From contig NZ_JSVC01000001.1 of NCBI RefSeq assembly GCF_000814475.1, forward strand, positions 62,001 to 126,000: a stretch of DNA of 64,000 nucleotides. Direction: 5' to 3'. This DNA is from Flavihumibacter solisilvae. GTDB lineage: Bacteria > Bacteroidota > Bacteroidia > Chitinophagales > Chitinophagaceae. Every line of letters begins with the position of its first letter. Position 1 is the stretch's first letter. A model generated the notes under the pieces. It was given only the letters and a program-made list of their open reading frames with translations, was not told the origin of the DNA and ran no database searches. Position numbers and translations under genes: made by a program. Shown in pieces: positions 33,912 through 37,844 of the stretch.

Positions 33912-34307
33912 TCAATCAGTATTCAGCTGGGTTCCTATTGCCCAGGTATTACCTGCAAAATCCTTAAAGGACCCACGCTTATCCGGATCGCCAGGTTTTA
34001 CCGTTGGCTGTTCGTCGACGGTACAACCTGCTGCGATCGCCCTATCGAATACAGCATCTACATTGCTGACATAAACATGGATGAGATGGGTTATTGGTGG
34101 ATATGAGTCATTGGACTCACCAATCATTATCACGGAATCGTCGATCTGCAATTCTGCATGCATGATGCTGCCATCTTCGTTTTCATATCTCCTCAGGGGC
34201 CTGGCATTGAAAATATGGCTGATGAGTTCAATGAATTTTTTTGCATCGCTTACTACAAAATAAGGTGACACTGAATTGTAGCCCTGAGGTTTGAAATCGG
34301 CATTCAT
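33912..34307 (-). CDS. VOC-family (glyoxalase/PhnB-like) protein
   Basis: This 131-residue single-domain VOC protein starts at the ATG at 34307 (MNADFKPQGYNSVSPYFVV). The body shows the beta-alpha-beta-beta-beta modules with HAELQIDDSVIMIGES and the final GSFKDFAGNTWAIGTQ strand common to bleomycin-resistance/PhnB-like proteins. Substrate unknown. It is convergent with the SRPBCC gene and lies 16 bp downstream of the macro-TIR gene on the same strand; whether it belongs to that operon is unclear. Confidence 0.85.
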   Translation of the reverse strand: MNADFKPQGYNSVSPYFVVSDAKKFIELISHIFNARPLRRYENEDGSIMHAELQIDDSVIMIGESNDSYPPITHLIHVYVSNVDAVFDRAIAAGCTVDEQPTVKPGDPDKRGSFKDFAGNTWAIGTQLNTD

Positions 34308-34323
34308 ATTCCTGGTTTCTGAT

Positions 34324-35370
34324 TTAACTGATCTGTTGCGCGGCTGACCTGAATTTCTGGAGGTCGCCTTCTGTACAGTCGATATAGCTGTAAATGCCCA
34401 TAATGGGAGGAAGTTCCTTGTCACTATACAGGTAAACCGTTTTGATGACGGGTTTACGTAGACGGTATTCCTTGAGCTTTGCACATTGGAATTCATCCCA
34501 GCAAACGTCTGACTTACTATATTGGGGCGACAGTACGTAGATGACTGATTCGGCCTGCTGGATCGCATCCGAGATCAGCCGGATCCATTGTCCGCCCGCC
34601 GGAATGCTGCTGCGATCATAAAAAATGCGAAGGCCCTGATTTTTCTCCTTCATTGCTTTTACAAATTCCTCCACCTCACTGGTATGAACATGCGCATAAC
34701 TGATGAAGTAGTCGTACCCGGGAGGCGGTGGCGCTGCAGCTGCTGGTGCCAGGTCGCGGGTATCCGCTAATTTCTTTTGGTATGCATTTCGTTTTTCGCG
34801 GAAGATATTTTTGGCTGTGTCTGCATCATCCCCGTCAATTACACAAAATCGGATAACGTTCAGGGGAAGGTCATTTTCGAGCCAGAAAATTGCTGTGTCA
34901 AGCAATGCTGCAAAAACATTTCCTGCCTCGCCCCGCTGGTTGCCGGTTGCAACGATGGGCAGAGCTACAGAGGAAACAGCTTCATTGAATGCGAAGGTGT
35001 TGATGCACCGGAAAATATTTCCAACCAGTTCCTCAGGCTTCGCGCTAAGGTGACCTGATTCGAAACAGAGGATCCTTTCAAAATGAAGCCGGGACTGCAG
35101 ATCCTGGTCAACAGGTGCTGACAGCCAACAACCCAATTGAGCCGTGAGATCTGCTTCCTTGTGATCAGCAAGAGACGCAACTGAGATTCCCTTGCGGTGA
35201 AGACTTCCGATTATTGTACCGTCAACAGGAGTATAATCGCCCGGAAAGGCGGATACAACCAGCAGGTCGACTGCATATTCCTCCGGTAATGCGGTAATGT
35301 CGCCCAGGAGTAGCTGGATGATTGCGCCACCACTGGTCCTGTGAACAGTAAGTTGTGAAAGCAATTCCAT
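34324..35370 (-). CDS. Macro-like domain fused to TIR domain
   Basis: This 348-residue protein has no signal peptide. Residues 10-190 resemble a macro (ADP-ribose-binding) fold: GDIT at 23-26, DLLVVSAFPGDY where macro domains carry their nucleotide loop, and ALPIVATGNQRGEAG (136-150) like the second phosphate loop. The usual Asn-Ala-Ala-Asn is not conserved. An Ala/Pro-rich linker (207-217) leads to a TIR domain (219-348) with DYFISYAH, IFYDRSSIPAGGQW and SDVCWDEFQ; Glu293 is in the position of the NADase glutamate of enzymatic TIRs. A TIR with an ADP-ribose-type sensor suggests NAD cleavage or cyclic-ADP-ribose signalling. It lies 10 bp downstream of the patatin gene. Confidence 0.75.
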   Translation of the reverse strand: MELLSQLTVHRTSGGAIIQLLLGDITALPEEYAVDLLVVSAFPGDYTPVDGTIIGSLHRKGISVASLADHKEADLTAQLGCWLSAPVDQDLQSRLHFERILCFESGHLSAKPEELVGNIFRCINTFAFNEAVSSVALPIVATGNQRGEAGNVFAALLDTAIFWLENDLPLNVIRFCVIDGDDADTAKNIFREKRNAYQKKLADTRDLAPAAAAPPPPGYDYFISYAHVHTSEVEEFVKAMKEKNQGLRIFYDRSSIPAGGQWIRLISDAIQQAESVIYVLSPQYSKSDVCWDEFQCAKLKEYRLRKPVIKTVYLYSDKELPPIMGIYSYIDCTEGDLQKFRSAAQQIS

Positions 35371-35380
35371 TAAAAATTAT

Positions 35381-36784
35381 TTACGCCTCAGCAATATATG
35401 TTTGCTCAAAAACTTCTTTCGCGCAGGGATACATTTCACCGTTGATCCCGATCATGAGGTAATCGCCGGCACGGCCTTTCATCAGTCCCTCAAGGGTTTC
35501 CACTTCAAAGGCCTCCGCCATGCGGCAGCAACGGACAGCAATTGGCTTTTTGGTAACAAGTTGAAATTCGAATTCCGGGATTACGCCCTGTTTAAAATGC
35601 CGGATCGAATTGCCGGCCTGAGACGCTTCTGGTGAAGGCATGAACGATGTATCAAAATGCGTCGGGTCTACCTGCTTTTCTGCAGCTGCCAGGCCGATGT
35701 CATATAATTCAAACCTACTGTCTGCATTGCTCATCTCGACGAGCCTGGCGACGTCTTCACTGCTATAACTTTTCCCGGTCAGTTGCTTCAGTTCCTCCGC
35801 AGCAATCCAGGTGTTGTAACGCAGATAGCTGAAGAGACCTTTACCATTACTGTCTGCTACCAAAAGATCGTCGCGCATGTCACCGATCTCTTCATCAATT
35901 TGCCAGGCAGTAGGTGATTTAGCCAGCCATTGCAGGATGATCTGGTTGTTCCAGCTGGCATCCTGCATCAGCATATCCGGAATTTCCGCTGCCCAGTTAA
36001 GCAGGTGATTATCGGTAACATTCTCCGGCAGGCTTGTGAGCTTTCCCATTCCCGTACCGACCGATACCAATAGCAAATTACCCGCACCCATTTTCCACCT
36101 GAAGGGAAAACCCTTCAGGGTCGCAACCATCAGCAATTGAAGGGCGGGGTTATTGGCCATGCTTACTCCGCCATCAACAAACGCTGCAGTCGGCGCATTT
36201 CCTCCAACGTCAATTACCTGGGGCAAAAAATAAGTCGGTGCCGCAGCGCTTGCACGTACTGCCTTCCACAGTAAAACATTTTTATTGAGACCGAACTGGC
36301 TGTCGTAAAATTTACCCGACGGGTGATTGATGAGGGGCCACACACTATTCGTATCTGCGCGCTTTGTTACAATACATAACCCGGTCCTGATTTTATCACT
36401 GCCGAGGGTAGTATCACCGAAAACTGCCTTCAATTCTTTTTCGAGCGGACCAGCATCATACTTTGCCTTGATCAGTTTGGTTATCTCGTACCATTTGAAT
36501 TTGTCGCCAAAAATCTTTCCTCCCAGGTCAAGGTACATGCTTTTGATGTCGTCTACTTTCATTCCAATGGACAGGCAGGCAGCAATGATGGATCCTGTGC
36601 TGGTACCGCCGATCAGGTCAAAATAATCGCAGAGCCTGAAGGCGGGGTCATTGTCGAATTGCGAGGCAAGGGAATCCTCGATTTTTTTCAGGTAGCCGAG
36701 GGTAAGAGCACCGCGGATTCCGCCGCCATCCAGCGCCAGAATTCTCTTCGGGCCTTCCGACTGCAATCGCTGTAACAGTGTCAT
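35381..36784 (-). CDS. Patatin-like phospholipase
   Basis: This 467-residue cytosolic protein has all patatin motifs: oxyanion loop DGGGIRG (19-25), nucleophile GGTSTG with Ser62, and DGG with Asp204 completing the Ser-Asp dyad. The catalytic domain spans about residues 12-220. A roughly 240-residue C-terminal region follows that I do not recognise; it probably regulates activity. Patatin enzymes hydrolyse phospholipid acyl chains and include immune effectors such as CapV of CBASS. No cyclic-nucleotide synthase gene lies nearby. It is the first gene of a two-gene unit with the macro-TIR protein and is divergent from a lipoprotein gene 43 bp away. Confidence 0.9.
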   Translation of the reverse strand: MTLLQRLQSEGPKRILALDGGGIRGALTLGYLKKIEDSLASQFDNDPAFRLCDYFDLIGGTSTGSIIAACLSIGMKVDDIKSMYLDLGGKIFGDKFKWYEITKLIKAKYDAGPLEKELKAVFGDTTLGSDKIRTGLCIVTKRADTNSVWPLINHPSGKFYDSQFGLNKNVLLWKAVRASAAAPTYFLPQVIDVGGNAPTAAFVDGGVSMANNPALQLLMVATLKGFPFRWKMGAGNLLLVSVGTGMGKLTSLPENVTDNHLLNWAAEIPDMLMQDASWNNQIILQWLAKSPTAWQIDEEIGDMRDDLLVADSNGKGLFSYLRYNTWIAAEELKQLTGKSYSSEDVARLVEMSNADSRFELYDIGLAAAEKQVDPTHFDTSFMPSPEASQAGNSIRHFKQGVIPEFEFQLVTKKPIAVRCCRMAEAFEVETLEGLMKGRAGDYLMIGINGEMYPCAKEVFEQTYIAEA

Positions 36785-36815
36785 ATCACAAATTACGTTT
36801 TTATTACATACTTTT

Positions 36816-36829
36816 ATCGGTCAACCGAT
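36816..36829. promoter_or_regulatory. Palindrome in the patatin/lipoprotein divergent promoter
   Basis: ATCGGT-CA-ACCGAT is a perfect 6-bp inverted repeat with a 2-nt spacer. It lies in the 43-bp gap between the divergent patatin and lipoprotein genes and overlaps the first base of the lipoprotein ATG. It could be an operator or a start-site hairpin. Short length makes chance possible. Confidence 0.4.
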
Positions 36830-37844
36830 GAACATGCATTCGATTTTAATCGTTTCTGTGTTAGCGTTATTCCTGTTCCTGGCGTGTTCTTCTGCACCGG
36901 AAAGCCAATCACCCGTTGCGATACAGGAGGAACTGGATAAACTGAAGCAGGCGCTTTTGGACCGCGACTTCATGACCGGTGTTGCAAGGGCACAGGAAGC
37001 GGCATACTACGATGCGCTGGGCCAGGCGGTACCGTCTTTTATTTCCGCGGAAGACAGCAGCCAGGTCATTTTGAAAAGTCTTCGCGATGAGCGAATAGCG
37101 GCAACGCTTTCATCGTTTTACGCCCTGGAGTGCGGAATTAGTGCAATGACGAGAAGGAAGCGGGGAACCACGCCTCTGACTATACTCCAGCAGGTTGAAG
37201 CATGGAGGATCGACACTACATCAAAATTATTACTGAGATGCTTTGCAGATGCGACGTGGAGGACCGGGCAGCCATTTATGAGTCTGAAAAGTATAGTGAA
37301 GGTTCAGCCGAATTATGAAGTTCAACTCAGGCTCGTTGCGAAAAAAATGATTGCGGACCTTGAAGATGTTGCCGGCGGAAGCTGCCAGATGCAGACAAAA
37401 AAGATCAGGCACCTTATGCAGGATTCCACCTATATGCATAAGATGGCAGAATACATCGATCCGGCAATACTGAAAACAGAAACAGGCATTATAGAAAGAA
37501 GCAAATACGAAGAGAAGGTTGCTACTAATCTTCCAGGCGCATTCGCGCTCGAATGTGGAATCACGTTCCTTGCGAAGACGAAACAACAGTTGCCATCTGC
37601 ATTGATCCGTTCCATAAATGAAAACACTATTTCAGAAGAAGACATGATGTTGATGTGCAGATTTGCAAATGCCACCTGGAAATCATCACAACCCTTCAGG
37701 GGCCTAAACCGGATAAAAGGCAGTACGTTTATCCCTTTCAGTCAGCTGAGTGACGAAGAGGTAGAAAAAGACCGGGTGCAGATCAGGTCTGCCGCAGGTT
37801 TTTTTACACAAAATGTTTTTTCAGGAACTCAAAAGCATTATTAA
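36828..37844 (+). CDS. Lipoprotein with duplicated domain, unknown function
   Basis: This 338-residue protein has a lipoprotein signal ending in FLAC (Cys20). Two halves are homologous to each other: residues 88-157 and 228-297 share ALECGI (99-104; 240-245) and CFADATWRTGQPF versus CRFANATWKSSQPF, with similar spacing. The N-terminal 25-85 region is helical. I recognise no named family. It lies 43 bp from the divergent patatin gene and converges with the M19-like gene with a 41-bp overlap. A second ATG (36834) is also a possible start. Confidence 0.75.
   Translation: MNMHSILIVSVLALFLFLACSSAPESQSPVAIQEELDKLKQALLDRDFMTGVARAQEAAYYDALGQAVPSFISAEDSSQVILKSLRDERIAATLSSFYALECGISAMTRRKRGTTPLTILQQVEAWRIDTTSKLLLRCFADATWRTGQPFMSLKSIVKVQPNYEVQLRLVAKKMIADLEDVAGGSCQMQTKKIRHLMQDSTYMHKMAEYIDPAILKTETGIIERSKYEEKVATNLPGAFALECGITFLAKTKQQLPSALIRSINENTISEEDMMLMCRFANATWKSSQPFRGLNRIKGSTFIPFSQLSDEEVEKDRVQIRSAAGFFTQNVFSGTQKHY

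Follow-up and report, generated by a model that had tools for sequence, protein, structure and literature searches.

The question raised by this locus of Flavihumibacter solisilvae is whether a patatin-like phospholipase gene, a gene fusing a macro domain to a TIR domain, and a divergent lipoprotein gene make up one functional module. The window, i.e., the whole analyzed stretch of 64,000 nucleotides (contig NZ_JSVC01000001.1, positions 62,001 to 126,000), harbors these genes as follows (positions are those of the window; ORF, open reading frame; AF2, AlphaFold 2):

34324-35370, minus strand: macro-TIR fusion gene (348 aa; ORF list, Pfam TIR_2, AF2 model)
35381-36784, minus strand: patatin-like phospholipase gene (467 aa; ORF list, Pfam Patatin at 115 bits against a cut-off of 27.7)
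36828-37844, plus strand: divergent lipoprotein gene with an internal duplication, accessory at most (338 aa; ORF list)

According to the ORF list, 10 bp separate the macro-TIR gene from the patatin gene and 43 bp separate the latter from the lipoprotein gene, so all positions and spacings given in a preliminary description of this DNA stand. The evidence presented below suggests, with a likelihood somewhat above even, that the patatin and the macro-TIR protein represent the effector and the signal-making and signal-reading parts of a Thoeris-like abortive-infection module.

Linkage of the Macro-TIR and Patatin Genes

The association of the two genes, previously deduced from their spacing alone, is now supported by recurrent adjacency. 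Beside the macro-TIR gene, tblastn revealed an orthologue of the patatin (52-70% identity) in 10 of 17 loci, namely in the window, L007-L012, L015, L038, and L039. With the window left out, the count is 9/16; the adjacency is recurrent in the other Bacteroidota (9/11) but fails in Accumulibacter (0/5), and these counts mix related genomes. On balance, the picture is mixed yet favorable to the linkage. All ten linked pairs reside on one strand, in two gene orders; in L015, the order is reversed, with 55 bp between the genes. Over the ten loci, the pairwise identities of the macro-TIR proteins and of the patatins are strongly correlated (Mantel r 0.89; none of 10,000 permutations as high). Such correlated divergence fits joint inheritance of the two genes, and shared species history also gives a correlation of this kind. 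Taken together, the recurrent adjacency and the correlated divergence rule out the window pair as a lone accident.

The macro-TIR relatives were collected by a scan of genome contigs (13 loci) and by searches of 59 relatives and of samples of 396 genomes of the order, 394 of the family, and 335 of the phylum. These samples overlap and are not full surveys, and many of the genomes are metagenome bins. The sample searches added three full-length loci (G485, G649, and G431) to those of the contig scan; four other hits coincided by coordinates with scanned loci (G613 with L007, G632 with L008 of Agriterribacter humi, G534 with L012, and G470 with L015), and each was counted once. Partial matches covering one half of the profile (G131, G141, G276, G503, G539, G726, G879, and G914) were left out of the full-length count, and among the 59 relatives, four genomes (G018, G021, G037, and G046) were matched weakly and in part. 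The 17 full-length loci, window included, belong to Bacteroidota (12) and Accumulibacter (5). In the family sample, the full-length gene is present in 8 of 394 genomes, own genome included, and none of the 14 same-genus genomes displayed a match; the distribution of the gene is patchy.

Domains and Conserved Residues of the Two Proteins

The macro-TIR protein comprises the following elements:

34780-35370, minus strand: N-terminal macro domain, residues 1-197 (D24 and G143 invariant in 21/21 aligned sequences)
34327-34719, minus strand: C-terminal TIR domain, residues 218-348
34492-34494, minus strand: codon of Glu293, the putative NADase glutamate (invariant in 14/14; aligns with the CWDE segment of Cat1)

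Pfam TIR_2 matches residues 222-339 at 61.5 bits (cut-off 28). Glu293 lies in the segment SDVCWDEF, is invariant in all 14 aligned macro-TIR proteins (window included), and falls in a conserved segment shared with other TIR enzymes, as judged by sequence alignment, in line with the NADase role considered likely earlier. The macro-like nature of the N-terminal domain has likewise been borne out. Its 21-row profile matches solved macro domains (AF1521 with E 4.5e-5, PARP14 with 1.5e-4), and fold comparison of the AF2 model (pLDDT 84.2, pTM 0.83) revealed a macro fold together with TIR folds. The Pfam Macro model gave no match to the N-terminal domain of the window protein alone and weak matches to 6 of the 21 members (best E 0.023). 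A structure of ThsA of the TM-macro type was not among the 50 fold matches listed for the model, which carries no weight either way.

By inspection, the adenine-side Asp is kept in the macro domain. Hydrolytic macro domains carry an Asn-Ala-Ala-Asn motif and a glycine loop; in the alignment, the window protein has VSAFP at the place expected for the catalytic loop, and neither Asn-Ala-Ala-Asn nor a glycine triplet is present there. Macro domains of the same kind also occur with other C-termini (L043:5944-8170 and L140:1114-3526), where the neighbors include proteins tentatively read as DarT-like (L043) and McrC-like (L140). Related macro domains are fused to yet another C-terminal region in L041:5998-11564 (three copies) and L042:6762-7973, in genomes of 8.7-8.8 Mb.

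The elements of the patatin are as follows:

36599-36601, minus strand: codon of Ser62, the GTSTG nucleophile (31/31 aligned patatins)
36173-36175, minus strand: codon of Asp204 in the DGG motif (31/31 aligned patatins)
35384-35632, minus strand: PGDYG-like C-terminal extension, residues 385-467 (83 aa)

The intact Ser62-Asp204 dyad noted before was confirmed, since both residues are identical throughout the alignment of 31 sequences, the window protein included. The PADLOC model of phospholipase effectors matches the window patatin (9.3e-54), and the NCBIfam model CBASS_lipase (NF041079) scores it at 136.4 bits, under the cut-off of 200. The C-terminal extension is found in the window patatin alone (0/30 aligned relatives). 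It matches PGDYG at 20.6 bits, below the Pfam cut-off of 27, and also resembles phage proteins from families without an assigned function (phrog_419, 4.5e-13); no sequence relatives of the extension were found in PDB at E 1. At a guess, this extension may now provide the regulation otherwise exerted by the neighbor gene which is absent from the window (see below).

The Intervening TPR-S Gene and Other Partners

In seven of the ten linked loci (L007-L011, L038, and L039), a gene encoding 457-478 aa resides between the patatin and macro-TIR genes, and all seven products score above the MAP3K_TRAF_bd and TPR-S (Tetratricopeptide Repeats-Sensor) cut-offs of Pfam. The preliminary description, whose reading of macro-TIR and patatin is supported in part, missed this gene. 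No TPR-S gene occupies this position in L012, L015, or the window, and in the latter two, the slot is empty. In L012, it contains three small ORFs (L012:4019-5052), the last encoding a pYEATS protein; perhaps, this is one disrupted gene in a metagenome bin.

The linked relatives feature additional genes. A 226 aa gene follows the TPR-S gene in L007, L008, and L010, and its copy in L008 has weak TIR-effector matches. A second TIR gene resides downstream in L007-L010 and L039 (Pfam-confirmed in L008 and L039), along with another TPR-S-type protein in L008-L011 and L039 (identified in L008 by Pfam, in L039 by tblastn, and in the others by protein starts). Contig C34 of the window genome encodes a TPR-S protein (61.8 bits against a cut-off of 27.6) which is 65% identical to the downstream TPR-S-type protein of the linked relatives. 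Hence, a TPR-S partner is available to the window pair, but in trans. The region of C34 in question looks like a second NAD-signal/protease locus: near the TPR-S protein (L139:10923-12302, minus strand), it encodes a protein of 1750 aa in which DUF7379, CHAT, and TPR-S domains are combined (L139:2756-8008, plus strand).

From the side of the patatin, the picture is broader. Close patatin relatives (1e-60) were detected in 28 of 394 family genomes, in 29 places, of which 26 were readable (the window and the contig-edge places L080 and L094 were left out). An NAD-signal-type partner is present in the flank of 22 of these 26. In six places, it is macro-TIR (G534, G613, G632, G485, G649, and G470); in ten, TPR-S (L074-L079, L089, L090, L092, and L093, all Pfam-confirmed, including two TIR-TPR-S fusions); in four, SIR2-TIR (L083, L084, L085, and L087, all Pfam-confirmed); and in two, a lone TIR (L086 and L088). 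For scale, the own genome (5.4 Mb) contains one TIR_2 match and three TPR-S matches over the cut-off. In a control relying on tblastn alone, a TPR-S or TIR match accompanied 10 of 20 readable patatin loci (22 fetched) and, within 5 kb, none of eight lipoprotein loci. Since TIR-type partners of several kinds accompany this clade of patatins, the unit is better described as a patatin with an NAD-signal partner, and its former definition as macro-TIR, patatin, and lipoprotein should be abandoned.

Several patatin loci possess further genes. A SLATT 2TM-effector gene adjoins the patatin in L012, L075, and, by tblastn, L077. In L083:5599-10793, L084:2662-7713, L085:5649-10848, and L087:2407-7107, the patatin resides beside a SIR2-TIR fusion and a STAND ATPase (the latter Pfam-confirmed in L084), accompanied in L083-L085 by a small nucleoside-deoxyribosyltransferase-like protein (Pfam-confirmed in L084); possibly, these loci represent another composite system. 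At L093:1915-5923, the patatin is joined by three proteins: one of the TPR-S type, one with DUF4062, and one in which TIR and pterin-4a-carbinolamine dehydratase domains are fused.

The Lipoprotein Gene

No Pfam family exceeded its cut-off in the lipoprotein. Inspection of its translation revealed a lipobox-like LFLAC and an internally repeated segment, ALECGI..., so calling it duplicated was fair. Its relatives are present in 9 of the 195 genomes sampled from the family, the own genome counted, and in 4 of the 16 further genomes with the patatin, these four all belonging to one genus. Across genera, lipoproteins of this family tend to share genomes with the patatin clade, mostly unlinked. With the own genome left out, 6 of 194 genomes hold both genes (8 lipoprotein and 11 patatin holders), a hypergeometric probability of 1.8e-7 which is uncorrected for kinship and treats the lipoprotein and patatin counts as one sample.

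It is highly improbable that the lipoprotein is a true third component, e.g., an envelope guard or a target marker for the patatin. This excess of co-occurrence speaks for such a role, as does the adjacency to the patatin in L076 (G559), the sole such case besides the window. Against it stand the other nine genomes holding both genes, where these are on different contigs or hundreds of kb apart, as well as the confinement to a single genus among the further patatin genomes; the eight loci fetched for the lipoprotein showed no patatin hit in its vicinity. The three window genes are ruled out as a unit, the lipoprotein being mostly unlinked to the patatin elsewhere. We place it outside the module, as accessory at most.

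Neighborhood of the Locus

The surroundings of the locus were scanned over 15 window proteins between 29634 and 44326, and all neighbors are ordinary: YdjC/beta-lactamase-like, 3-dmu, glyoxalase, an ArsR-type regulator, AHSA1, M19 dipeptidase, RtcB, acetyltransferase, and pirin, with regulators, dehydrogenases, and a glycosidase farther out. The tRNA and Rfam scans of the window gave no match. The listed glyoxalase ORF (33912-34568) overlaps the macro-TIR gene solely via its upstream start, and this overlap would vanish if translation began at the inner Met (residue 88).

Possible Mechanism and Alternative Explanations

The gene set, its recurrent adjacency, the predicted folds, and the conserved active-site residues are established. 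From these, we infer the trigger, the identity of the signal, the direction of signaling, and the role in phage defense as follows. A trigger, probably phage infection, would set off the TIR domain, which would cleave NAD+ and yield a product of the ADP-ribose type. Such a nucleotide would be read by the macro domain to which the TIR is fused, and this domain would gate or amplify the TIR activity. The signal would then switch on the patatin, so membrane phospholipids would be cut and the cell killed or stalled. In most linked relatives, the TPR-S protein encoded between the two genes would probably pass the signal on to the patatin; in the window, this relay might be the TPR-S protein of C34 acting in trans, the extra C-terminal domain of the patatin, or direct contact.

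A number of observations weigh against this scheme. Seven of the 17 macro-TIR loci (L013, L014, L016-L019, and L040) display no patatin in the flank, several of these flanks being short. Among six of the seven unlinked genomes (that of L013 excepted), a search revealed a patatin elsewhere in five and none in G998; it is on another contig in G431 and in Accumulibacter G994-G997, where the relative is 47-49% identical. Near the patatin of G994-G997, tblastn detected no TIR or TPR-S, the flanks there being short and gene calling poor. No macro-TIR relatives were found in plasmids, phages, or viral contigs, i.e., no mobile or phage context emerged. In the patatin clade, 4 of 26 flanks (L073, L081, L082, and L091) lack a TIR-type partner, and 8 of the 22 partners are encoded on the other strand (TPR-S in L076 and L089; SIR2-TIR in L083-L085 and L087; TIR in L086 and L088). 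The window itself lacks the intervening TPR-S gene, and the TPR-S model is loose, its cut-off being exceeded in 3 of 14 control genomes too.

Other roles of the same parts have to be considered. The macro domain could be an eraser, i.e., a built-in brake until infection which either removes the TIR product by hydrolysis or sequestration or undoes ADP-ribosylation; this is rather unlikely in view of the VSAFP segment. The TIR protein itself might kill by NAD+ depletion, with the patatin as a parallel second effector sharing the operon and a common sensor. The existence of solo macro-TIR genes (L013, L040, and Accumulibacter) and the many different partners of the patatin clade are in line with this possibility, which we consider unlikely: as NAD-processing or TPR-S partners accompany 22 of 26 patatins, the patatin seems to depend on the products or proteins of these partners.

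Finally, the pair could have nothing to do with defense and serve lipid remodeling or stress signaling in environmental Chitinophagaceae, as could be thought from the lack of phage, plasmid, or viral-contig relatives and from the ordinary genes scanned around it. The patchy occurrence of macro-TIR (8/394 in the family, 0/14 in the genus), its presence in Accumulibacter, and the pairing of the patatin relatives with STAND, SIR2-TIR, SLATT, and TPR-S proteins make this explanation improbable.

A bolder and doubtful proposal is a new class of NAD-signal immunity in which a self-reading macro-TIR protein both makes and senses the messenger, freeing a membrane-destroying phospholipase via interchangeable sensor cassettes. 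These cassettes would be TPR-S (seven linked loci), the YEATS-type gene (L012), and the PGDYG-like domain on the window patatin. If true, it would be, to our knowledge, the first TIR-driven system with a patatin as the executor. It would add a phospholipase output to bacterial TIR/NAD signaling and connect a lipase with the bacterial relatives of the TRAF-binding region known from animal MAP3K/ASK. It would also place the TPR-S/MAP3K_TRAF_bd region, used by animals in ASK kinases, in a living bacterial context, and offer a two- to three-gene unit small enough for testing in laboratory strains. A bacterial origin of this ASK-kinase region is stated in PMC8195603. As the gene between patatin and macro-TIR varies by locus, what the patatin senses becomes open to comparison.

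Comparison with Known Systems

Similar to Thoeris, the window pair includes a TIR protein with a putative NADase glutamate (Glu293, as deduced from its conservation in 14/14 sequences) and, as in Thoeris with TM-macro ThsA, one system combines a TIR enzyme with a macro domain. Unlike in the latter, macro domain and TIR enzyme form a single protein here, and membrane attack would fall to the patatin, not to a transmembrane segment. No separate ThsA of either the SIR2-SLOG or the TM-macro type, i.e., no SIR2, SLOG, or separate macro gene, was found among the 15 scanned window proteins. The PADLOC ThsB model scored the macro-TIR protein at a mere 13.5 bits (E 0.0071), and no NCBIfam Thoeris model matched the window protein at E 0.01. 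According to PMC11204291, macro domains of TM-macro ThsA bind ADP-ribose (ADPR) and IAD and oligomerize, which makes a reader role plausible for the window macro domain.

The likeness to CBASS is in the patatin family and its Ser-Asp dyad, CapV being the closest solved sequence relative (1.2e-18). The absence of a CD-NTase, pointed out before, holds for the same 15 proteins, and the NF041079 score is under its cut-off. Without a separate ThsA and an adequate profile match for Thoeris, and without a CD-NTase and a CBASS_lipase score over the cut-off for CBASS, the pair is filed in neither. SPARTA TIR-APAZ, AbTir, Cat1, and the PADLOC candidate PDC-S66 differ by another N-terminal domain; there is no Argonaute or CRISPR gene among the scanned neighbors.

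The literature searched gave no description of the macro-TIR fusion, alone or with a patatin, and no paper employing TPR-S in the present sense; prior mention in Burroughs and Aravind 2020 is possible. These authors reportedly treated TPR-S proteins as predicted NAD-signal sensors. The TPR-S systems (Pfam PF20308) resemble the present one in that the patatin of the relatives adjoins TPR-S/MAP3K_TRAF_bd proteins and differ from it in that the window locus is without a TPR-S gene. Overall, the window pair is nearest to these predicted TPR-S systems, though without their defining gene, and it may work like both Thoeris and CBASS.

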